Virus record (IMG/VR): IMGVR_UViG_3300045996_001607
Span: 1 to 23,089 of that record
Strand: one strand, 5' to 3'
DNA from: a virus
DNA length: 23,089 bases
Every line of letters begins with the position of its first letter. Within the stretch, counting starts at the first letter, position 1. Below are positions 1 to 19,555 of the stretch, in pieces. A model generated the notes under the pieces. It made no database searches and was not told the origin of the DNA. It worked only from the letters and a program-made list of their open reading frames with translations. A program made the translations under genes and the position numbers.

Positions 1-192
1 CGACAGAAGCCGGCGAAGGCGCAGCACAAGCAGCAGTATGAATTTACCCTAACGCGACAACAACAGGCGAGAGACGCCTTCTACGCGATGTACCCTTGGC
101 TTGGAGAGCGCAGACGAACACGAGGGCTCGAGGTCCTCGCGGAGTGCGCGAAGCTGAGGGATGCCGCTAACCGTCGCACAACTCACCGCTAG
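1..192 (+). CDS. C-terminal end of an unrecognised phage protein (5' truncated)
   Basis: An open frame enters from the window edge and stops with TAG at 190-192, giving 63 residues rich in Gln, Arg and Lys, including a helix-like stretch ending in LEVLAECAKLRDAANRR. It overlaps the start of the tape measure gene by 32 bases. In siphophages the gene directly before the tape measure is usually a tail assembly chaperone, often expressed by frameshifting, so this could be its downstream part. No domain is recognised and no clear slippery sequence is visible in the visible part, so the assignment is positional inference only. Confidence 0.5.
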   Translation, partial: RQKPAKAQHKQQYEFTLTRQQQARDAFYAMYPWLGERRRTRGLEVLAECAKLRDAANRRTTHR

Positions 193-3100
193 GCTCACCG
201 CCGACACGTCGGGGTTCTACCGCGGAATGGCGGTTGCGAACTCCGCCATGATTCGCTCCGGCGGGATCGCGTCGCGCGTCTTCGCCGGCATCGGGATCGG
301 CGTTGGCTCCGCAATGCTGCTTTCCATCCGTGAGGCGGGTCGTTTCGAGCAGTCCTTGAACGTCCTCGGCGCCGTCGTTCATGCGACGGGGGGCCAATTC
401 AACGCACTTCAAAAGCACGCGCTCAAACTAGGTCGCGACATCACACTTCCGGGCGTGTCCGCGAACGATGCAGCGGTTGCGATGACACAGCTTGCCAAGG
501 CGGGCTTCAACGCGCAGCAAGTCATCGCGGCATCGAAGGGCACGATGCAGTTGGGCACCGCCGCCCAGATCGAGTACACCGAGGCGGCGGACATGACCAC
601 ACGCGCGCTCAAGATGTTCAAGCTGCCGGCTAGCGACGCCGGGCGCGTTGCGAACGTACTTGCCGCCGGCGCGAACGCGTCGACCGCGTCAATGACCGAC
701 ATGGCGTACGGCCTCATGAATGCGGGCATGGGCGCGAAGATGATGAACGTCTCCGTCGAAGAGACCGTTGGTTCGCTGGCGATGCTCGTGGACGCCGGGC
801 TCTCCGGCGAGCGCGCCGGCACCGCACTGAACACGATGTTCTACCGGCTCGCGTCTCCGACCAAGGCTGCGGCCGCGATGATGGGAGAGCTCAACATCAA
901 GGCCTTCGACGCGAAGGGCAACTTCCGCGGCCTCCAGCCCATCATCAAGGACTTCGCTCGAGCGACCGCCGACATGGGCGACGCGCAGCAGGCCGCGATG
1001 TTCAAGACGATCTTCGGCATGCGCGCGAATCAGGCGATGATGGGCCTGCTAGACAAGGCGGGCAAGACGCAGAAGAACTACACCGATGCCGTCACCGGGA
1101 CGAACGCTGCTCAGGAAATCGCGGCGGCCCGGATGAAGGGCTTCCACGGGATGCTCGAGAAGGTGAGCAACGGCGTCTCTACGCTCGCGACCGAGCTCGG
1201 CCTCAAGATGCTCCCCTGGCTGACCGAGACGGGCAAACGGCTGGCGACGTGGATCAGCAACCTCGACCCGGAGGAAATCGCCACGGCGTTCGGGCGGGTC
1301 TTCCGGCCGATCATGGCCGGCTTCGCGGGCCTTTTCAGCTTCGTCAAGACCAACGCCGACTGGCTCGCCCCGCTGCTCATCGGCGTCTACACGGCGACGA
1401 AGGCGTTCGCCGCGCTCCAGCTTGCGATGAAGGGCGTCGCGGCGATCAAGATCGCGTCGTCTCTTGGCGCGCTTGCTCTGATCGGCGGCCCGTTGGGTGT
1501 TGCCGCCGCGTCGATCGGAGCGATCGCTGCCGCGCTCGCGGCCCTCGCATTCGCCTTCCCCGGCGTGCGCACGGCAATCGCGAACTTCCTCTCCGACATC
1601 AGCATGGCGTTCAGCGAGGGAGGGATCAGCGCGGTCTTCGACGTCTTCATCCAGCGCGTCAAGGACTTCTTCACCGGCACCACGCGCACGATCGAGGTCG
1701 GCGACAAGACGATCATCCTCAAGACCCGCCCCGGCATCGAGCTCCTGCTCGACCGACTCAAGTCGGAGGTCAAGGGCCTCTTCATCCAGCAGGACCGCAC
1801 GGTCGAAGTGGGCGACAAGACCATCACGATCAAGGCAGGGACCCCCGCACTCCAGATCACGTGGGGCGGAATGTGGGAAGGGCTCAAGGCGCGCGTCAAG
1901 CGCGGATTCGACGAGGCGTTCGAGTACGACAGCAACAGCGCCATGGGCAAGCTGAACGCGAAGGTGCTCGCAGGCCTGCGGGGACTGTTGACCAGCGCCG
2001 GCAACTTGTCACGCGCCATCGGAGACGGCATCTTCAACAAGCTCCAAGCCGGAGTCTCCAGGGTCGGTCCGATGGTGGCGCGCAACATGAACAAGATCCT
2101 CCCTGTCCTCACCGGAATCCCGGGCATCGTCTCTGGCGCGGCGCAGGCCATCGGTCGGGCGATCTTCGATGGAATCATGAGCGGTCTCGGCGACCTTGCC
2201 GGCGCGATCAAGTCCAAGGTCGTTGGCGCAGTGAGCGGAGCGTACGGTGCGGTCAAACGGTTTGCGCTCATCGACTCACCGTCGAAGCTCTTCGCCAAGG
2301 GCGTCGGTGCGCCGATCGGTCAGGGCATCATCATGGGCTTCCTCGACGGCTCGCGCGACCTGCCCGAGAAGATGAAGCAGAAGGTCAAGGAGGCGCTCGA
2401 GAAGGCGAAGCAGGCCGTCGTCGACGCGCGCTCGGCGTTCTCAACCGCGTTCAGCGACCTCGCCTCGAGCATGACGTCGGCGTGGGACAAGCACTTTTCC
2501 AACTACAAAACTCCCGCTGAGAAGCTGCTTGAGCAGATGGACATCGAGGACAAGCTGCGCTCGATCAACCAGGGCATCACCGACGCGCAGAAGGAACTCA
2601 ACGACGCGATCGCGAAAGGTGACCAAGAGGCCATCGACGCGGCAAACCGGAGAATGGAAGAGGCGCTGCGTCAGAAGACACGCTTCGAGCTCGAGGGCCA
2701 GGCCAAGGTCGAGCGCGCGCTCGCGACCGAAATCATCGAGGCCGAGAAGTACAAGATGGACCAGCGGCTCGAGGCGATGCGCAAGGAGTGGGAGCGGTAC
2801 GGGACGACGTCGAAGATCGTCCAGCAGGAAACACAGGCGCTCCTGGCCGAGTACGGCATCGACTATCGCGGGCTCGGCCAGAACTTCGGGCGCGCGCTCG
2901 CGATGGGTCTGCGCGATTCGATCGGTGAGGTTACGAGCGCCGCGGAAGCCGTCGCCGCTGCGATCGCCGCCGTGCTCAAGGTGAAGTCGCCGACCGATGA
3001 GGGGCCGATGAGCGACCTCGACAAGTGGTGGACGGGATTCGCCGAGACGCTCGTCGCCGGCATCAAGCGGAACGACATCCTCGGCGCCGTCACGGGCGCG

Positions 3101-3301
3101 CTCGGGAGGCCCGGCGCGAACATCGGCGGCCCGGCCCTCGCGGCGAACGCCGGCGGAGGCGGCGGAGCCACGTATGTCCTCAACGTCACCGTCCCCGTCC
3201 AGGGCCACGTGCTCACCGAGCGGAACCTCGTCGACGTCGTCACGAAGGGCATCCGGGACGAGCTCGGCCGGACGCCCGACCTTCTCGAGCCCAGGCGGTA
3301 A
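161..3301 (+). CDS. Tail tape measure protein
   Basis: This 1046-residue protein sets tail length and is packed inside the tail tube. The N-terminus resembles actinophage tape measures, with short Ala/Gly-rich helices (LTARLTADTSGFYRGM) followed at roughly residues 90-310 by the phage minor tail/tape-measure conserved region (for example the DAAVAMTQLAKAGFNAQQV part). Hydrophobic segments lie around residues 400-490, as in proteins that help DNA cross the membrane. Residues about 745-910 are charged and helical, likely coiled coil. The C-terminus ends in a Gly-rich stretch and a short beta-like segment. It carries a 37-residue tandem repeat at residues 508-581. The ATG at 161 overlaps the upstream gene; a weak purine run (GAGGG) precedes it. 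The next gene follows after 10 bases. Confidence 0.93.
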   Translation: MPLTVAQLTARLTADTSGFYRGMAVANSAMIRSGGIASRVFAGIGIGVGSAMLLSIREAGRFEQSLNVLGAVVHATGGQFNALQKHALKLGRDITLPGVSANDAAVAMTQLAKAGFNAQQVIAASKGTMQLGTAAQIEYTEAADMTTRALKMFKLPASDAGRVANVLAAGANASTASMTDMAYGLMNAGMGAKMMNVSVEETVGSLAMLVDAGLSGERAGTALNTMFYRLASPTKAAAAMMGELNIKAFDAKGNFRGLQPIIKDFARATADMGDAQQAAMFKTIFGMRANQAMMGLLDKAGKTQKNYTDAVTGTNAAQEIAAARMKGFHGMLEKVSNGVSTLATELGLKMLPWLTETGKRLATWISNLDPEEIATAFGRVFRPIMAGFAGLFSFVKTNADWLAPLLIGVYTATKAFAALQLAMKGVAAIKIASSLGALALIGGPLGVAAASIGAIAAALAALAFAFPGVRTAIANFLSDISMAFSEGGISAVFDVFIQRVKDFFTGTTRTIEVGDKTIILKTRPGIELLLDRLKSEVKGLFIQQDRTVEVGDKTITIKAGTPALQITWGGMWEGLKARVKRGFDEAFEYDSNSAMGKLNAKVLAGLRGLLTSAGNLSRAIGDGIFNKLQAGVSRVGPMVARNMNKILPVLTGIPGIVSGAAQAIGRAIFDGIMSGLGDLAGAIKSKVVGAVSGAYGAVKRFALIDSPSKLFAKGVGAPIGQGIIMGFLDGSRDLPEKMKQKVKEALEKAKQAVVDARSAFSTAFSDLASSMTSAWDKHFSNYKTPAEKLLEQMDIEDKLRSINQGITDAQKELNDAIAKGDQEAIDAANRRMEEALRQKTRFELEGQAKVERALATEIIEAEKYKMDQRLEAMRKEWERYGTTSKIVQQETQALLAEYGIDYRGLGQNFGRALAMGLRDSIGEVTSAAEAVAAAIAAVLKVKSPTDEGPMSDLDKWWTGFAETLVAGIKRNDILGAVTGALGRPGANIGGPALAANAGGGGGATYVLNVTVPVQGHVLTERNLVDVVTKGIRDELGRTPDLLEPRR
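1682..1903 (+). repeat. Tandem 37-residue repeat within the tape measure protein
   Basis: Two consecutive 37-residue units (residues 508-544 and 545-581) begin with TRTIEVGDKTI and DRTVEVGDKTI and continue with an L-rich amphipathic part ending in VKGLF and VKRGF-like sequence. The beta-hairpin-like 'RT[IV]EVGDKTI' core is nearly identical in protein, but the codons have diverged, which suggests an old internal duplication. Confidence 0.75.
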
Positions 3302-3311
3302 CCTCCGATGT

Positions 3312-6300
3312 GTGACCCCGTTCCTACGTACGCTCACACTCCTGGCGCTGCTGCTCTTCGGGATTCTGTCCGGGACCGGGCTAGCTCATCACAGGCCCGG
3401 ACACTGCAAGCCAGCATGTACGTCCACGACGACGTCGACAACGATCGGAACCACAACCTCGCCGGGGCCGACTGACATGGCGACAATTGGTCTTGCGACT
3501 CCTGGTGCGTTCTCATTCTCTCCCGTTGGAAACGAGAAGCGCGCGTATCTGACGTCGCTCGCCGCAGATGGCGACTTCACGACGATCGAGATTCACGACA
3601 CGGACCTCGGCTGGGTGTCGGGAGCAATCGTGGGGTCGCCTGTAACGATCACTGCGCGGCCGCGGCTCTACGTCGGCTACCACTTTAGCGGCGTAGACAA
3701 GTTCCGCCTCCACATCTGGGACGACAACGGCTCCAATGCTCCGGGAGCGTTGCTCGCCTCAACGGCGGAAATCACCATCGCCACTCCTACGCTGACCTAC
3801 AACGATCCAGGGTCAGGGACGAACCAATGGATCGACTCTGACACGTACTCCGACGGCACCGCCGCACCGTTCACTGCGGATAGCTCAACCCAACACATCA
3901 TTGCCCTACGCGCCAACTACACACCGACGTCGAGCGGGCCATCTAACACGGAGCAGCCCCAACTCACGGGAACTCCGGTGCAGGGAGAAACTCTGACGGC
4001 TCGAGACGGGACGTGGACCGGCTCACCGTCGTTCACCAGGAAGTGGCAGCGGGCTACCACGGCCGGCGGCACGTACTCCGACATTGCCGGTGCTACCGGG
4101 GCCACCTACGTTCTCCAGTCGGACGACGTCGGCAAGTTTGTCCGCGTGCTTGTGACCGCGACCGAGGGCGCAAACTCAACCGACGCCGCCTCCAACGTGA
4201 CCTACGAAGCTGTTCTTTCCCCCGCTCCGGCAGTCACTAGCGACGAGGTCGGCTTTTCCGTCGGTGGGAACTTCTTCGGGCGTTCGGAAGCGCAGCAGGA
4301 GCTCGAGCTCGACGACATGGCAACCCTTGCGCCGGGCGGGTACATCCGCTTCGAGTTGAACTGGTCGGCGATTGAGACGTCCAAGGGCACGTTCAACTGG
4401 ACGACCTATGATCGTCTGATCGCCGACGTCGAGCAACGTGGATTCAAGCTGCTGCTCGGGATCCTCTTCGCCCCGACATGGGCAAAGACCGGGACGGCGC
4501 TCTACCCGACGAACAACAGTGACCTCGCGGACTTTGCGGCTGCTGCCGTCAACCGATACAAGCCGGGGGGCACACAGGGACGGAACGTACGTGCCTGGGA
4601 AGTCTGGAACGAGCCCAACATCAGGCCCTTCTGGGACCCCACCGTCGGCCTTGGTGCCGATGCGACCGCGCGCGCAGCGTCGCGAGCGAAGTATTCCGGC
4701 ATGCTCTCTGCCGCGTACGACGCGATCAAGGCAGCGGACCCGAACGCCACGGTGCTAACCGCTGGCTTCGCTCCGTTCGGTGAATACACCAGCGCAACTG
4801 CCGATGGCATCAACCCCAAGGCGTACTTTGAAGCGATGGTTGAAACAGACGGCGTGGGCGGCAAGTTTGACGCGGTCGCTGTCCATACCTACGTGTCCAC
4901 AGACGTCCAAGACTACGACGTGTCGATCTACTCCGGTTGGTCCGACCTCGAGGACAACACCGTCTCGTATCGGTCGATCATGGAAGACAACAGCTTGGGC
5001 GCGAAGCCCATTTGGGTGACAGAGCACGGGCTCCCAATCGGACAAACCGGCACGAAGTACCCGGGCGGAGTGACTCAGCAGGCGCAGGCTGATTTCGTGA
5101 CAGAGGGGTACCGGCGATGGGCCGCGTTCACTTGGCCCAAAGGCCCGCTCATCTACTTCTCGCACAGGCCGGAGACATCAGCTACCGGCGCGTATCAGTA
5201 CGGCATTGTCGAGGCAACCCCCGCTAGCCCGTTGTCCAACAGGCGGGCGTGGTACGCCATGCGCGACTTCGCACGCGATTCGTTGGAGTCGGAGTCGGGG
5301 GTTGGCCTGTTCTTCGGCGCGGCGTTCGGGTACAACCCGTACGACACTGATCCCGTGTACGTCGACCTATCCGACCGCCTGCTTTCGTGGTCGTTCCAGC
5401 GAGGCCGTCGTACCGTGACCGACGCAATCGATCCGGCGAGGCTGACTGCGCACCTGTACAACGGGGATCGCGCGCTCGATCCCTCGTACCTCAGTTCCCC
5501 GTACGCGGGAGACGTCGAGCCCGGTGTGCGGGTAGTGCTCGACATCGACGGGCGGCGTGTCTACAGCGGGTTTGTAGAGGGCTGGCCGCAGGATTGGGAC
5601 GGGAGGCTCAACACCGTAACGATCACCGCACTCGACCTCTTCGATACGTTCAACGTCGACATGATCCCTGCCACCGTCTACGGCGTACAGAAGACCGGCG
5701 CTCGTATCACTGCGGGGCTCTCCGAAATCGGTGTGCCTTCCGCGTGGTACGCCGGGGTTAACACCGGCATTGACGACGCCCAATCGCACACCGCCGGCGA
5801 AGAGGACAACTGGCTTGAGCACTTCAAGAAGGTCGCAGTGACCGAACAGGGCTACCTCTTCCAGGACCGTACCGGCCTGGTGAAGTTCTACCAGCGCCAT
5901 GCCCTCAGCCTGTCTCCTTTCACCGACATTCAAGTCACCGTCTCCAACGATCCAGCCTTCGGTGAATGGCCGCTGTCCGATGTTGACGACCCCGACTACT
6001 CCGTCAAGGACATCCGAAATGACGTGAGGGTCACGCGCGAGGGCGGCGCAACGACTCGCGTCGTGGACTCGGCGTCTGTCACGAAGTACCGCAAGCGCAC
6101 CTATCAGGTGACCACAATTCACGATTCGACGACTGTTCCCGCCGACCTCGCGACATGGATTCTCCAGAGGGACGCGTACCCGAAGCTGCGCCCGGACGGC
6201 GTCACGCTCGAGCCACAGATGGAGCCGGGAATGCTTCATCCGATCATCGAGCGCGACCTCGCAGACCGCGTGCGGCTACGTGTGCAGCCGCCTGGGCCGG

Positions 6301-6464
6301 CGGGAGTCATCGACCTAGAGGCCGCGATCCAGTCGATCGAAATGTCCATGGGCGAAGACCGAAAGCTGGTCGTAAAGTGGAACATCGCGCCTCCGACAGG
6401 AGCGTCCCAAGTCTGGAAGCTCGGCACGAGTACACTTGGCGTCGATACCTACCTCGGGTTCTAA
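3312..6464 (+). CDS. Minor tail protein fused to Ig-like and clan GH-A glycoside hydrolase domains, with signal peptide-like N-terminus
   Basis: The frame encodes about 1050 residues if it starts at the GTG at 3312. Residues 1-25 look like a Sec signal peptide (TPFLRTLTLLALLLFGILSG, then GLA-HH), followed by a Cys/Thr/Pro linker (37-55). Residues 56-200 are beta-rich, and about 215-298 match an actinobacterial Ig-like repeat (ending SDDVGKFVRVLVTATEG). Residues about 310-650 form a TIM-barrel hydrolase like families 5/39: WEVWNEPN gives acid/base Glu434 and IWVTEHG gives nucleophile Glu571. From residue 667 (FFGAAFGYNPYDTDPVYVDL) to the end it matches actinophage minor tail/hub proteins. Likely role: degrading a surface glycan during adsorption. 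No Shine-Dalgarno is visible at 3312; ATG 3477 would remove the signal peptide, and ATG 5259 could give the tail domain alone. A competing 55-codon frame from ATG 3308 has poorer codon bias. Confidence 0.88.
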   Translation: MTPFLRTLTLLALLLFGILSGTGLAHHRPGHCKPACTSTTTSTTIGTTTSPGPTDMATIGLATPGAFSFSPVGNEKRAYLTSLAADGDFTTIEIHDTDLGWVSGAIVGSPVTITARPRLYVGYHFSGVDKFRLHIWDDNGSNAPGALLASTAEITIATPTLTYNDPGSGTNQWIDSDTYSDGTAAPFTADSSTQHIIALRANYTPTSSGPSNTEQPQLTGTPVQGETLTARDGTWTGSPSFTRKWQRATTAGGTYSDIAGATGATYVLQSDDVGKFVRVLVTATEGANSTDAASNVTYEAVLSPAPAVTSDEVGFSVGGNFFGRSEAQQELELDDMATLAPGGYIRFELNWSAIETSKGTFNWTTYDRLIADVEQRGFKLLLGILFAPTWAKTGTALYPTNNSDLADFAAAAVNRYKPGGTQGRNVRAWEVWNEPNIRPFWDPTVGLGADATARAASRAKYSGMLSAAYDAIKAADPNATVLTAGFAPFGEYTSATADGINPKAYFEAMVETDGVGGKFDAVAVHTYVSTDVQDYDVSIYSGWSDLEDNTVSYRSIMEDNSLGAKPIWVTEHGLPIGQTGTKYPGGVTQQAQADFVTEGYRRWAAFTWPKGPLIYFSHRPETSATGAYQYGIVEATPASPLSNRRAWYAMRDFARDSLESESGVGLFFGAAFGYNPYDTDPVYVDLSDRLLSWSFQRGRRTVTDAIDPARLTAHLYNGDRALDPSYLSSPYAGDVEPGVRVVLDIDGRRVYSGFVEGWPQDWDGRLNTVTITALDLFDTFNVDMIPATVYGVQKTGARITAGLSEIGVPSAWYAGVNTGIDDAQSHTAGEEDNWLEHFKKVAVTEQGYLFQDRTGLVKFYQRHALSLSPFTDIQVTVSNDPAFGEWPLSDVDDPDYSVKDIRNDVRVTREGGATTRVVDSASVTKYRKRTYQVTTIHDSTTVPADLATWILQRDAYPKLRPDGVTLEPQMEPGMLHPIIERDLADRVRLRVQPPGPAGVIDLEAAIQSIEMSMGEDRKLVVKWNIAPPTGASQVWKLGTSTLGVDTYLGF

Positions 6465-6474
6465 AGGAGGCACC

Positions 6475-6933
6475 ATGCGTGACGCAACGCAGATGCTCGG
6501 TTTCACCGGCCCCTCCGGGGTCGTGCGCGTAGCGGAACCTTCGAAGTCGGCGCTCGATGCTTTTCTGGACGCGTACCAGGCCCGACCGACGTTCACTGGC
6601 TTCCCGAACCGCCGGGGTGACGATGGCCTGCCAGCGCGGGGTGTCGTCGACGAGCTCGGGACGACCGTCAAGATGTACGTCAACGAAGACAGATGGGTCG
6701 GCGACTGTCCGTTCTGCAACAGCGGGATCGCCGGCGTCTACCGACTCGACGAGTGCATCTGTCTTGACTGCGGGCGGCGAATGGGTGTGTCTTGGCCCTC
6801 GAGCACCCACGTCGAGCAGGCCCAAGTTGTGCTCGAGCGACGTCCGGAACCGAACCGAAACTGGATCCCGGATCGTGAGAGCGTGGACGACCTCAAGGTC
6901 GAGAACATGACGCGCGGGATCCCGATTACGTAA
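6475..6933 (+). CDS. Zinc-ribbon protein of unknown function in the tail gene cluster
   Basis: The ATG at 6475 follows a strong ribosome binding site (AAAGGAGG, 4 bases upstream), giving 152 residues. The middle holds a probable zinc ribbon: CPFC around residues 81-84 and CICLDC about 20 residues later, so four or five cysteines are available for one zinc ion. The rest is hydrophilic, with no membrane segment. The stop overlaps the next start (TAATG). A small zinc-ribbon protein between the receptor-binding-type tail protein and fibre-like proteins may be a virion component or an assembly factor; nothing in the sequence decides between these. Confidence 0.8.
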   Translation: MRDATQMLGFTGPSGVVRVAEPSKSALDAFLDAYQARPTFTGFPNRRGDDGLPARGVVDELGTTVKMYVNEDRWVGDCPFCNSGIAGVYRLDECICLDCGRRMGVSWPSSTHVEQAQVVLERRPEPNRNWIPDRESVDDLKVENMTRGIPIT

Positions 6934-7427
6934 TGGCCTGGACTGCTCCCCGCACCTGGGTTACCGCCGAGCTCGTCACCGCCGCGCTCATGAACACGCA
7001 CGTGCGCGACAACCTCAAGGAGCTCTACCATCTGATCGGATCGTTCGGCGGGAGTGACTACAGCGTCTCCCCTGAACTCACCTGGAACCTCATGCTTGCT
7101 GTTGGTCCGGTGACCGTCGCCGGCAACCCCGTCTACGTCGAGGTCGCTGCACGAATGGTCAGTTGGGCGGCCGGAGACGGTGGCGGCAAGATCGGCATCT
7201 GGGACTCCGGCAACACCACGGAGCTCAAACGTCTCTGGCAACGCGACGACACGTTCGGAACGACCACCGGCACCAGCACTGGAGGATTCCGTAACTGGTA
7301 CGAGGTGACCCCCTCCGCGGGTTCGATCACGTGGAACATTCGCGGCAACCCCGAAAACGGTACAGGCGGAGACTCTCTCTCGGCCTGGGGGCTGCGCGTG
7401 CGCGTTTGGGAGAAGGGCGGGCCGTGA
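6933..7427 (+). CDS. Tail-fibre-like minor tail protein (first of two paralogues)
   Basis: This 164-residue protein starts MAWTAPRTWVTAELVTAALMNTHVRDNL, an N-terminal module shared by many actinophage minor tail or fibre proteins, where it is probably the attachment helix. The remainder is a beta-rich, Gly/Thr/Trp-containing domain with alternating hydrophobics, compatible with a small beta-sandwich or trimeric fibre tip. It overlaps the zinc-ribbon gene by one base and is followed 3 bases later by a paralogue. Family recognition is good; adsorption function is inference from family and position. Confidence 0.85.
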   Translation: MAWTAPRTWVTAELVTAALMNTHVRDNLKELYHLIGSFGGSDYSVSPELTWNLMLAVGPVTVAGNPVYVEVAARMVSWAAGDGGGKIGIWDSGNTTELKRLWQRDDTFGTTTGTSTGGFRNWYEVTPSAGSITWNIRGNPENGTGGDSLSAWGLRVRVWEKGGP

Positions 7428-7430
7428 GTC

Positions 7431-7898
7431 GTGGCCTGGGTAACTCCACGCACGTTCGTCACTGACGAGTTCATGACGGCCGCGATGTTCAACACGAACG
7501 TTCGCGACAACGTCGGGGAGGCGTGGCGTCGTGTGGGCGGTGGCGGCCCGACCAGCCCGGCAGCACCGAACGGCTCGTTCGGCACGCTACTTACGATCGG
7601 GCCGATCACCGTTGACCCCGGTGTGCCGGTCCGCCTCGAGCTCGCCGCCCACATGGCCTCCGGGGGAACCGGGGGGATCCTGTCCGTCTACCACGCCACC
7701 GACGATACGGAGCTCACTCGGGTATGGGAAACCTCCGGACACGTGGCCGGCACCTTCGGAAGCGTTACTCCCCTCGAACACGAGGAAACGCCCGAGGCCT
7801 CGAGCGTCACCTGGCGGGTCCGGGGCTTCGGCTACGGGGGGGCATGCACGTTCTCAGGCCTGTCCTGGATCCTGCGCCAGCGTGGGGGTCCGGGGTAA
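7431..7898 (+). CDS. Tail-fibre-like minor tail protein (second paralogue)
   Basis: The GTG start at 7431 gives 155 residues beginning MAWVTPRTFVTDEFMTAAMFNTNVRDNV, clearly related to the preceding protein. Similar patterns continue through the beta-rich domain (a GPITVDPGVPVRLELAAHMAS segment corresponding to GPVTVAGNPVYVEVAARMVS upstream). The pair probably arose by tandem duplication and then diverged, as happens for host-range determinants. Translation is probably coupled to the upstream gene, because the gap is only 3 bases and there is no clear Shine-Dalgarno. A 76-base gap without a convincing gene follows; it contains a TAGAAT box at 7904-7909 with no good -35 partner. Confidence 0.85.
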   Translation: MAWVTPRTFVTDEFMTAAMFNTNVRDNVGEAWRRVGGGGPTSPAAPNGSFGTLLTIGPITVDPGVPVRLELAAHMASGGTGGILSVYHATDDTELTRVWETSGHVAGTFGSVTPLEHEETPEASSVTWRVRGFGYGGACTFSGLSWILRQRGGPG

Positions 7899-8181: not shown

Positions 8182-8654
8182 GTGACGAGACGAGCGACGA
8201 CACGTACCTCGACGACGAGGAAGACAACGATCTGCGGCGCATTGAAGACGCGCAGGTTCGAGAGGTCAGCCGCCAGTACGACATGCCGATCCGCGACGCG
8301 GTGACCGGCGAGCCGGTGCAGATCCACGTCGTCTCGTGGGTCAACAACACCTTCTGGCGCGTCGCAGTCGGGCTCGCGTTCCTCGCGTCGCTCTTTTCGA
8401 TCTACGACAACGGCCAGCGCGTCGACCGGCTCGAGGGGCAGGTGTGTGAGTCCCTCTCGGCGAGCATGACCAACATCAACACGCTCCAGTATTACAAGGA
8501 CCACCCGCTCGAGGCCGAAGAGCAGCGTGCGCGTTTGCTCGAGGACCTCTCACGTTTCCATTGTCCCGACCCCGGTTCGCCTACTGTCGAGGGGCTGGGC
8601 ATGCCAGACGTCGTAACCGGAATCGTGGAATTCGGAAGGAAGGTGGCACCATGA
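8178..8654 (+). CDS. Single-pass membrane protein of unknown function
   Basis: The 158-residue protein has a very acidic N-terminus (DETSDDTYLDDEEDNDL), one transmembrane helix at about residues 58-77 (NTFWRVAVGLAFLASLFSIYD) and a C-terminal half with a helical, charged stretch (PLEAEEQRARLLEDLSRF) and two cysteines (90 and 129). It starts in the stop of the holin-like gene (ATGA) and ends in the start of the next gene (ATGA). Its place between probable lysis genes and the helix after the membrane segment would suit a holin partner or spanin-like protein, but no family is recognised. Confidence 0.75.
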   Translation: MSDETSDDTYLDDEEDNDLRRIEDAQVREVSRQYDMPIRDAVTGEPVQIHVVSWVNNTFWRVAVGLAFLASLFSIYDNGQRVDRLEGQVCESLSASMTNINTLQYYKDHPLEAEEQRARLLEDLSRFHCPDPGSPTVEGLGMPDVVTGIVEFGRKVAP

Positions 8655-8860
8655 AGCGACTGATCGCGGCCGTGGCCGCAACCCTCGCGCTCGCCGGCGG
8701 AGTCGCTCAGGCGGCCGAGGCCTGCACCATCGGCTCATCCTACGAGTCGTACGCCTACTGCACGTCCAACCCCGGGGCCATCCTCATCACGTACACGTGT
8801 ACGGACGGCCACATCTACCGCGCGACGAACTGGCGGGTACTCTGGGGCTGCGGCGGCTAG
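8651..8860 (+). CDS. Small secreted cysteine-containing protein
   Basis: The ATG at 8651 follows GGAAGGAAGG and overlaps the upstream stop (ATGA), giving 69 residues. Residues 1 to about 22 form a typical Sec signal peptide (MKRLIAAVAATLALAGGVAQAAEA). The mature part is about 46 residues with four cysteines spaced as two possible disulphides, plus several aromatic residues (SYESYAYC, ATNWRVLWGC). No family is recognised. A short exported protein in a lysis cassette could act on the envelope or modify the infected cell surface. Confidence 0.72.
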   Translation: MKRLIAAVAATLALAGGVAQAAEACTIGSSYESYAYCTSNPGAILITYTCTDGHIYRATNWRVLWGCGG

Positions 8861-9302: not shown

Positions 9303-9710
9303 TTAGGGACGGTCGAAGTTCGGGACGATCGTCTCAGGCTTGAAGATGACGCGGTAGCGCGTCACTGAGACGTTCTGCGCCTTGCCCTGCTCGACGAAGT
9401 ACGAGACGTTGTCAGAGAGGCCGAGGAAGTGCTTCTTGAATCCCTGCGACGTCTTGCACGTGACCTCGAGCGCACCCTGCACGCCCGTGCTACCCGCCTC
9501 GATGGAGCAGAGGCCCTCGATGACGAGCAGGTACTTGTCGGTGATGCCGTTGAAGAACACGATCCTCCGCTCGACCTCGAACTGCTCCGCGGCCTTGCTG
9601 AGGTTCTTGGACGCGACGTCTGCGTCCGACTCGAAACAGCCCGCCGTCAGGAACGGGATCGGCAGCAGCATGGAGGCCACCACCAGGAGGTACGCGATGC
9701 GAGCCTTCAT
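9303..9710 (-). CDS. Phage lipoprotein (beta-sandwich type)
   Basis: From the ATG at 9710 the product has 135 residues. It has a signal peptide (MKARIAYLLVVASMLLPIPF) and a lipobox LTAGC with Cys25 as the lipidated residue, so it should be anchored outside the cytoplasmic membrane. The mature part is beta-rich, ending VTRYRVIFKPETIVPNFDRP, similar to proteins commonly labelled beta-sandwich lipoproteins in actinophages. The leader CGACCGAAAGGGGAACC precedes the start, and a near-consensus promoter (9741-9769) lies just upstream, so it can be expressed apart from the long operon. Surface lipoproteins of phages often cause superinfection exclusion; that role here is inference. Confidence 0.85.
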   Translation of the reverse strand: MKARIAYLLVVASMLLPIPFLTAGCFESDADVASKNLSKAAEQFEVERRIVFFNGITDKYLLVIEGLCSIEAGSTGVQGALEVTCKTSQGFKKHFLGLSDNVSYFVEQGKAQNVSVTRYRVIFKPETIVPNFDRP

Positions 9711-9740
9711 GGTTCCCCTTTCGGTCGATTGCTTGGCAGA

Positions 9741-9769
9741 ACCGTACCACGCCGGCACGGCCCTGTCAA
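9741..9769 (-). promoter_or_regulatory. Near-consensus sigma70 promoter for the lipoprotein gene
   Basis: Reading the minus strand, TTGACA (9769-9764), a 17-bp spacer and TACGGT (9746-9741) precede the lipoprotein start by about 30 bases. Unlike the main early promoters, the spacer lacks the TCCGACCC element. The -35 box lies directly outside the stop codon of the upstream TIM-barrel gene. Confidence 0.75.
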
Positions 9770-16957: not shown

Positions 16958-16986
16958 ATTGTAGCGGCCGGGTCGGACGTTACTTG
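16958..16986 (-). promoter_or_regulatory. Candidate promoter with TCCGACCC operator element
   Basis: On the minus strand TACAAT (16963-16958) is a very good -10 box. TCCGACCCGGC (16977-16967) lies exactly 3 bp upstream, as in the main divergent promoters. The -35 position (CAAGTA) is weak. The element overlaps the 3' end of the peptidase gene. Confidence 0.5.
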
Positions 16987-17603
16987 AGCAGCGCCTTGAG
17001 CACCGCGCGCTCGTCGCCCGAGACAGCCACCGTCGACACGACTTCAACCGGATCCCCCACGTAGGCGTTGAGGTCGATCGCCACGCGGATCGCGGCGTCC
17101 GCCGCCTGCACGGCCTTGGACAGCGTCAGGTCGGCGATCGTCCCGACGCTCTCCATGAGTGCGCCGGCAGCGACCTCCCCTCCCGAGCCTTCCGTGGCCC
17201 AGGGGAGTCGGTCTTCGGCAACTTGGAAGTCGGGGAGGATCGAGAAGAGCCGGTGCCGGACAGCGAAGATCAACGCCGAGTCGGGCATTTCAAGGATCGA
17301 GTCCTCGTGGAAGATCGCGAGTGTGCCCGATACGTCGAGGATGTGGATCATCTGGGGCACGAGCTCCTTCACGGCCCATCGGTACTCGTCCTGGCCGATG
17401 TATGGGCCGTCGAAATGCTCGAGCCCAAACTCGAGCGCCTGTCCGACGCGGGGGGAACCGCAGCCGGCCATCGCGACGGTGTCGCTGAACTGGATGATCT
17501 TGGAGTCGATGCGCTCGCGCTTACTTCCGCCGTATCCTGTGGCCTGTGAATCCGCTGCGAGGACGACACCGTTGCGGTACTTCACTCCGACGATCGCGGT
17601 CAC
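16980..17603 (-). CDS. HslV / 20S proteasome beta-like Ntn-hydrolase peptidase
   Basis: This 207-residue protein starts at GTG 17603 (GGGAG upstream) with M-TAIVGVKYRNGVVLAADSQAT. Removing Met exposes Thr as residue 1, the catalytic nucleophile of this family, with no propeptide, as in HslV. Asp is then residue 17, and Lys is residue 34 (canonical 33). The GCGS segment and the later EGSGGEVAAGAL motif match the proteasome Ser129 loop, and AAIRVAIDLNAYVG matches the last helix region, although the usual Asp166 and Ser169 appear as Asn and Val, closer to HslV. It should form a ring-shaped compartment that degrades proteins fed by an ATPase; no HslU- or Mpa-like ATPase is visible here, so a host unfoldase or an ATP-independent role is possible. 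Confidence 0.88.
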   Translation of the reverse strand: MTAIVGVKYRNGVVLAADSQATGYGGSKRERIDSKIIQFSDTVAMAGCGSPRVGQALEFGLEHFDGPYIGQDEYRWAVKELVPQMIHILDVSGTLAIFHEDSILEMPDSALIFAVRHRLFSILPDFQVAEDRLPWATEGSGGEVAAGALMESVGTIADLTLSKAVQAADAAIRVAIDLNAYVGDPVEVVSTVAVSGDERAVLKALLK

Positions 17604-18689: not shown

Positions 18690-18924
18690 GGTCGCCAGCA
18701 TAGACGACGATCGCCTTCTCTTCACGGCGCACCGTGTAGAGGACGTCGTCGGCGTCGATGTCGACAACCTGGACGCGCGACTTGGCCTCGCGCTCGACTA
18801 GGTGGAGGGCCTCGAGCGTCGCGGCCGTCTCCCCCGGGTACTTCGCCGGGCGCGTCTCCCCGTCGTAGCGCAGGCGGAAGCGCGTTCCGTCTCCGTCTGA
18901 CCGGCGGTGACGACGGATCTTCAT
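18640..18924 (-). CDS. Small hypothetical basic protein
   Basis: The ATG at 18924 overlaps the stop of the RlpA-like gene (ATGA), giving 94 residues. The N-terminus is basic (MKIRRHRRSDGDGTRFRLRY) and the rest alternates strands and helices (TLEALHLVEREAKSRVQVVDIDADDVLYTVRREEKAIVVYAG). No known family is recognised. It overlaps the endonuclease start by 50 bases, which is unusual here and leaves some doubt about one of the two boundaries. Confidence 0.65.
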   Translation of the reverse strand: MKIRRHRRSDGDGTRFRLRYDGETRPAKYPGETAATLEALHLVEREAKSRVQVVDIDADDVLYTVRREEKAIVVYAGDHGEAPTKTQRSPQAAV

Positions 18925-19286
18925 CGGACACGCGTCCAGTACACGCGGCAGACGCCGCAACGAGTCACGCCGGCGACGCGCGCCGCCGCGTACGTGAGGT
19001 CGAAGTCACGCCCACGCACGAACGGGCCGCGGTCGATCACGCGCACGAGCACGCAGCGCGTACGGCAGACACGGACGATCGCACCGAGCGGAAGCGTCTT
19101 GTGCGCGACGCCCCACGTGCGCGGGGTGAGCACGGTGCCGTCGGCTGTGCGGTTGCCGTACAGCCCTGGGCCGTACCACGAGCTCACGGCCTGCGCCTCG
19201 GAGCGGCCGTCGGCTTCCTCCGTGTACCCGATGAGCAGCAGCGCACAGAGGATGCCGACGAGGATTCCTACGGCGACGAGCCTCAT
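18921..19286 (-). CDS. Membrane-anchored RlpA-like double-psi beta-barrel protein
   Basis: This 121-residue product from ATG 19286 begins with a hydrophobic segment (RLVAVGILVGILCALLLIG), either a signal anchor or a signal peptide. Residues 36-102 match RlpA-like barrels: SSWYGPGLYGNRTADG, GVAHKTLPLGAIVRV (His62) and VIDRGPFVRGRDFDLTYAAA (Asp85). RlpA proteins bind or cleave peptidoglycan glycan strands; the Glu often found after TANG is Thr here, so cleavage is uncertain. Cysteines in CRTRC and CGVC could form disulphides outside the membrane. It overlaps both neighbouring genes by ATGA. Being near the start of the early operon argues against a role only in final lysis. Confidence 0.83.
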   Translation of the reverse strand: MRLVAVGILVGILCALLLIGYTEEADGRSEAQAVSSWYGPGLYGNRTADGTVLTPRTWGVAHKTLPLGAIVRVCRTRCVLVRVIDRGPFVRGRDFDLTYAAARVAGVTRCGVCRVYWTRVR

Positions 19287-19495
19287 GCCTTGCGCTCCGC
19301 CGCCGCCGCCGTTATCTGCGCCTCGAGCTTCGCCGTTGCGCTGGCGAAGTCGAAGTCGGAGATGGACGTGAACGTGCCAAGCTGGTACATCTGCGCCATG
19401 AGCGTCATGGCGTCTGCGATCCGGCGCGCGGAGTCGACGATGCCGAGCAGCGCGAGCAGGAAGAAGATGCTGAGTACGATTGCGAGGAAGAGCAC
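19283..19495 (-). CDS. Small single-pass membrane protein, first gene of the minus-strand operon
   Basis: The GTG at 19495 follows GACCGAAAGGAGCACC, giving 70 residues. The N-terminus is a transmembrane helix (LFLAIVLSIFFLLALLGIV). The remainder is helical and polar (DSARRIADAMTLMAQMYQ; ASATAKLEAQITAAAAERKA) and is likely cytoplasmic. A near-consensus promoter lies about 35 bases upstream. It is probably made very early; no family is recognised. Confidence 0.7.
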   Translation of the reverse strand: MLFLAIVLSIFFLLALLGIVDSARRIADAMTLMAQMYQLGTFTSISDFDFASATAKLEAQITAAAAERKA

Positions 19496-19526
19496 GGTGC
19501 TCCTTTCGGTCGGGTTGTCCCGGGGA

Positions 19527-19555
19527 ACAGTACACGTCGGGTCGGACGGTGTCAA
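19527..19555 (-). promoter_or_regulatory. Main minus-strand early promoter
   Basis: TTGACA (19555-19550), a 17-bp spacer and TACTGT (19532-19527) form a near-consensus sigma70 promoter in front of the GTG at 19495. The spacer carries TCCGACCCGAC (19546-19536), 3 bp upstream of the -10 box. It should drive the long operon down to about 9.8 kb. Confidence 0.85.

Follow-up and report, generated by a model that had tools for sequence, protein, structure and literature searches.

The stretch of DNA analysed here (hereafter the window) is the entire IMG/VR record IMGVR_UViG_3300045996_001607, 23,089 bases in length, and derives from a virus known from metagenome sequence alone. Its genes are those of a tailed phage and show actinophage-like traits; among their products are a family A DNA polymerase whose best matches include Gordonia phages, a PD-(D/E)XK nuclease, an AAA ATPase and a primase-helicase-like protein. 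Its ORF list holds no head genes, so the record is probably incomplete. Some further genes of the window are recorded here in their own right. The product of 16980-17603 (- strand) is a proteasome-subunit-like protein (PF00227, 5.6e-12, residues 2-54) that starts MTAIVGVKYRNGVVLAADSQAT and has Thr next to the initial Met, an arrangement shared with active proteasome beta subunits. At 8651-8860 (+) lies a gene for a 69-aa protein of no family with a clear signal-peptide-like start (MKRLIAAVAATLALAGGVAQAAEAC), and at 9303-9758 (-) a member of Pfam Phage_VG64 (1.4e-48), a family named recombination directionality factor in PHROGs, a name that clashes with the lipoprotein-like start (LLPIPFLTAGC) of this product. 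Finally, 18921-19535 (-) encodes a DPBB lytic-transglycosylase-like (RlpA-type) protein (4.8e-15).

The gene under study occupies 3312-6464 (+) and encodes, from a GTG start, a 1050-aa fused protein consisting of a signal-peptide-like start, a linker, a domain of residues 56-205, an Ig-like domain, a PslG-like glycoside hydrolase (GH) and a baseplate hub. Directly 5' of it is the gene for the tail length tape measure protein (161-3301, +; PF10145, 2.2e-46; phrog_1533, 4.5e-76), and it is followed by a gene of no confident family at 6475-6933 (+) that is preceded by a strong Shine-Dalgarno (SD) sequence, AAAGGAGG. The fused gene is tightly packed between the two, with 10 nt separating it from the tape-measure stop and 10 nt from the next, SD-led gene. 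Further downstream, by reading, are a small gene of the type that follows the hub in relatives (6933-7427, +) and a second, similar small gene (7431-7898, +), whose adjacent products are alike (MAWTAPRTWVTAELVTAALMNTHVRDNL and MAWVTPRTFVTDEFMTAAMFNTNVRDNV) and which apparently represent a tandem duplication of this hub-following protein.

The C-terminal part of the protein (residues 664-1050; 5301-6464, +) is a gp27-like baseplate hub domain, as indicated by its AlphaFold model (AF2; pLDDT 82, pTM 0.80), by structural matches and by its homologues. Foldseek searches with the model returned 58 matches at E <= 0.001 (E 1e-15), VIA Z scores were 23.0 for phi812, 22.1 for 3d37 and 19.1 for T4 gp27, and the baseplate hub proteins that the model resembles include the MuSo2 43 kDa tail protein, T4 gp27, Mu gp44, phi812, VgrG and Douge BHP. 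The initial annotation had described the C-terminus as a complete minor tail protein; its completeness is borne out, as the alignment of the domain with hub proteins that stand alone runs from one end to the other, while its identity can now be specified as a baseplate hub beginning at about residue 664.

Relatives of the hub domain, drawn from phiPsal1 gp19, the loci of alignments A1 and A4 and a few loci in genomes, are mostly free-standing proteins of typically 390-640 aa encoded directly 3' of the tape measure gene. Single-sequence scans of viral contigs with the tail part or the N-terminal part gave no relative, and it was the alignment-based scans that found them. The hub directly follows the tape measure in phiPsal1, L178, L183, L196, L148, L150 and L154; a gene-by-gene reading of six relatives, together with the annotation of phiPsal1, shows the hub behind a long tape-measure-type gene, the two either overlapping slightly or separated by up to about 60 nt, and a small protein gene after the hub. 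At L181 one extra gene separates the tape-measure-type gene from the hub. The hub part of the window protein is the positional orthologue of the free-standing hub of phiPsal1 and of those at about 100 further loci. Separately, a hub protein in an Actinomycetota MAG (L147:358-2253) carries, by reading, a LamG-like stretch inside the hub domain and not ahead of it; alignment A3, which contained this lectin-like insert, was misaligned and was used for no conclusion.

Residues 306-655 (4227-5276, +) form a PslG-like clan GH-A glycoside hydrolase barrel, as the initial annotation had proposed in broader terms. PslG is matched by phmmer (E 2e-11), a profile of eight relatives (A2) matches the barrel at E 1.3e-41, and Foldseek with the barrel model places PslG (5bx9) first at E 6.2e-17, followed by a GH39 enzyme, with about 20% identity in the PslG structure match. 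Both predicted catalytic residues are intact: E434 (codon 4611-4613, +), the acid/base of the NEP motif, aligns with PslG Glu165, and E571 (codon 5022-5024, +), the nucleophile, with PslG Glu276, and both are invariant across all aligned relatives. In the alignment itself these correspond to PslG chain positions 139 and 250, which were converted by a 26-residue offset derived by hand from the 31-442 construct. The window protein has no match to PF01229 (Pfam GH39) above the cut-off, which the cellular relative L049 passes, and the barrel is therefore classed as PslG-like and GH39-related rather than as GH39. Weak PDB matches had offered a bromodomain identity for residues 602-683, which we take as chance.

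Ahead of the barrel lies an Ig-like domain (residues 206-297; 3927-4202, +) recognised by phrog_26223 (7.9e-9) and phrog_35892 (1.8e-8), which has a 40% identical stretch in L049 and comparable stretches in phages of Stenotrophomonas and others. L049, from an Actinomycetota MAG, combines a signal peptide, an Ig-like domain and a PslG-like GH in one 520-aa protein that is 33% identical to the window protein over residues 191-625 and adjoins glycosyltransferase-like genes. Residues 56-205 (3477-3926, +), which begin at ATG 3477, are without assignment. The beta domain previously suggested here was not recovered, since no Pfam or PHROGs profile recognises this region, it is modelled poorly (pLDDT about 35), and no match rose above chance level in scans of phages, viral contigs, the full set of fetched loci and 396 genomes.

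The N-terminus resembles that of a secreted enzyme. Residues 1-25 (3312-3386, +; MTPFLRTLTLLALLLFGILSGTGLA, then HH) score as Sec-signal-peptide-like under a simple home-made rule (charged n-region, hydrophobic h-region and small residues at the cleavage site). Dinucleotide shuffling of 3312-3476 gave 1712 stop-free sequences in 5000 rounds, and not one of them matched this score, a result to be read as support and not as proof given that a dinucleotide shuffle spreads local composition. A Thr/Ser/Pro-rich linker follows at residues 26-55 (3387-3476, +), read directly from the translation in agreement with the initial annotation, and the cellular L057 has a similar Thr/Ser-rich N-terminal stretch. 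By a similar rough rule, 77 of the 83 cellular PslG-like ORFs begin with a signal-peptide-like stretch, while of the hub ORFs whose 5' end is complete, 102 in all, the window's alone scored strongly (three others were marginal, at 1.9-2.0). The feature therefore tracks the enzyme half. Taken together with the domain order of L049, these data agree with the earlier description of the gene as a secreted actinobacterial glycosidase layout joined to a tail protein, and capture of a secreted enzyme, one of the possibilities raised there, fits them.

Where translation begins bears directly on this picture. No start candidate near 3300-3480 has a good Shine-Dalgarno, nothing of note precedes GTG 3312, and the strongest anti-SD pairing (-7.1 kcal/mol) belongs to an ATG at 3308, which could open a 55-aa leader ORF ending at TGA 3475, one base before ATG 3477 (residue 56). 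In addition, the coding log-likelihood over 3312-3476 does not prefer the fused frame (-0.185, versus -0.123 for the frame of ATG 3308). Translation might then start at 3477 and yield a protein with no signal peptide, 3302-3476 being non-coding or a coupled leader ORF, in which case the hub-fused virion enzyme would otherwise stand. We regard this as unlikely, given that the hydrophobic stretch scores far above shuffles, that the layout from 3312 matches that of the cellular relatives, and that a start at 3477 would leave a 175-nt gap after the tape measure, while the hub genes of relatives begin near the tape-measure stop, a packing that a start at 3312 fits.

A signal peptide in use would remove the protein from the cytoplasm, the site of tail assembly, and so counts against its being a virion hub. 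The finding raises the question of how a signal-peptide protein could reach cytoplasmic assembly. The simplest answer, and the most likely one, is a relic signal peptide that is not efficiently used, or one bypassed by a start at residue 56. An interesting rival is that the gene gives two products, a full-length hydrolase that the infected cell exports by Sec, and a free virion hub of about 401 aa, made separately from the ATG of residue 650 (5259-5261, +). Such a hub would have the same length as the free hubs, the signal-peptide-like start does stand beside a tape measure gene, phage endolysins with Sec signal peptides are known (PMC6116005), and one phage contig has a separate 360-aa signal-peptide PslG-like enzyme between its terminase large subunit and portal genes (L132:6773-7855). 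Set against these points, 5259 is preceded only by a weak SD-like sequence (AGGCGG, 12 nt upstream) and 3312 by none of note, a hub domain would be useless on the exported form, and by reading the other N-terminally extended hubs give no hint of such an arrangement, all of which makes two separate products quite improbable in our view. In its broader form, with one gene serving in two places as a Sec-exported exopolysaccharide hydrolase and as a tail hub (from an internal start or by escaping export, with or without the enzyme), the idea is again an unlikely one; if true, the phage would clear slime at two stages, ahead of adsorption and in the surroundings of its burst.

The fusion itself appears sound. 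The frame is uninterrupted over 3174-6464, with no stop and no frameshift, the junction between enzyme and hub is in frame and at a domain boundary, and codon statistics favour the frame of the fused gene over all of 3477-6464, the proposed junction included. GC3 is 0.72 for residues 56-205, 0.78 for the Ig-like domain, 0.77 for the GH and 0.78 for the tail part, compared with 0.87 for the tape measure and 0.78-0.81 for the three downstream genes. The equal values on either side of the junction (0.77 and 0.78) suggest that the two halves have probably resided in one genome for a while, and judging from this composition the joining of enzyme to hub is probably not recent.

To determine how isolated the arrangement is, we compared the two halves across their relatives. 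A GH profile run against all ORFs of 102 other hub-bearing loci found no PslG-like hydrolase, the window being the sole match, and when the fetched phage loci that encode PslG-like enzymes were scanned with the hub profile, none gave a hub match. No second contig with a hydrolase-hub fusion was found. The initial annotation had held that homologues with tail domain and hydrolase always as separate genes would point to an assembly error. The two are indeed separate in all relatives examined, but hubs with other N-terminal fusions exist. At least 5 hub ORFs bear other N-terminal domains, with extensions of roughly 200-260 aa in L178, L193/L195, L196 and L206, of about 400 aa in L183, and a LamG lectin-like domain in L181, and phrog_5313 covers an N-terminally extended hub form. 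The hydrolase-hub fusion therefore follows a recurrent plan, which argues against assembly error. The alternative that the assembly is chimeric here, or that a single genome recently acquired the fusion as a dead end, has in its favour that the fusion comes from one metagenomic contig and was not seen elsewhere. We nevertheless judge this very unlikely, given the junction at a domain boundary within 3.15 kb of intact frame, the equal GC3 on both sides, the normal packing with both neighbours and the other N-terminally fused hubs.

PslG-like enzymes were also found in phage contigs, namely L129, L130, L132, L133 and L136, and those of L129, L130 and L136 lie among the structural genes, in keeping with the reading favoured below. 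In L130 the gene order is tape measure, Dit, GH protein and minor tail protein, and in L129 a collagen-like stalk, the GH and a fibre domain form one fusion. A separate observation concerns the 1992-aa phage protein of L136 (L136:3308-9286), which begins like a tail protein and continues in one chain with kelch-like repeats, a PslG-like barrel and, at the C-terminus, another region resembling a hydrolase, the domains other than the barrel being assigned by reading only. Together, the free signal-peptide enzyme (L132), the enzymes of tail cassettes and the extended hubs resemble steps of a capture-and-fusion route.

The reading that we favour, to which we assign a probability of about 0.65, is that this gene encodes a baseplate hub with an exopolysaccharide-type glycoside hydrolase at its N-terminus, i.e. 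a captured secreted enzyme displayed on the tail hub. A secreted bacterial hydrolase, or a phage copy of one, would have landed between the tape measure and the hub and been joined to the latter in frame, and the relatives suggest a simple route, in which the captured enzyme (free in L132) was then fused to the next tail gene. In the most likely mechanism the hub half would assemble at the tail tip, where the analogy with gp27 suggests a trimer, with the Ig-like and hydrolase domains projecting outward from it. Extrapolating from the fusion to the hub, the displayed hydrolase would probably cut host surface or biofilm polysaccharide during adsorption. The parts are known singly, and their combination was seen in none of the relatives examined. 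No glycosidase-hub fusion was found in searches of open-access literature, which does not imply that none has been published.

Comparison with known systems places each part of the protein. The gp27-like hubs (gp27, Mu gp44, the phi812 hub and mycobacteriophage Douge BHP) have a fold in common with the window hub over about 300 residues, yet none of the listed solved structures is described with an N-terminal glycoside hydrolase. The homologous hub of Pontimonas phage phiPsal1 (gp19, 'putative tail fiber', AUV61428.1) likewise adjoins the tape measure, but at 395 aa is without the N-terminal extension. The hubs of L178, L196, L183 and L181, together with phrog_5313, share with the window their family, gene order and the presence of N-terminal accessory domains; unlike in the window, however, these extras are lectin-like or unassigned, with no hydrolase and no clear signal peptide. 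Elsewhere, carbohydrate-active parts occur as insertions or at the C-terminus, Tal of phage X27 being an example (PMC12403621). In the evolved Dit of skunaviruses, carbohydrate-active additions to a tail-tip core protein help phages on exopolysaccharide-coated hosts (PMC10688798), but there a binding module is inserted in Dit, whereas in the window an enzyme is carried on the hub.

On the side of the enzyme, PslG, the exopolysaccharide hydrolase of Pseudomonas aeruginosa (PDB 5bx9 and 4zn2), has the same barrel, the same NEP acid/base and nucleophile glutamates and a secreted layout with a signal peptide, and differs in that the window barrel is preceded by an Ig-like domain and ends C-terminally in a phage hub. 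The cellular enzyme L049 has the same order of signal peptide, Ig-like domain and GH, without the 56-205 domain and without the hub. The phage PslG-like enzymes (L130, L129, L132, L133, L136 and the 'beta-1,4 xylanase' of Caulobacter phage Cr30) belong to the window's hydrolase family and lie partly in tail cassettes, but as separate genes or in other fusions, never joined to a hub, and the PslG-like relatives as a whole provide a defined candidate set of enzymes against bacterial exopolysaccharides. Phages usually attack surface polysaccharide with beta-helical tailspikes or with fibres, which sit at the edge of the tail; in the window it is instead the central hub that carries the enzyme, a hydrolase with a barrel fold and of the biofilm-dispersing PslG type.
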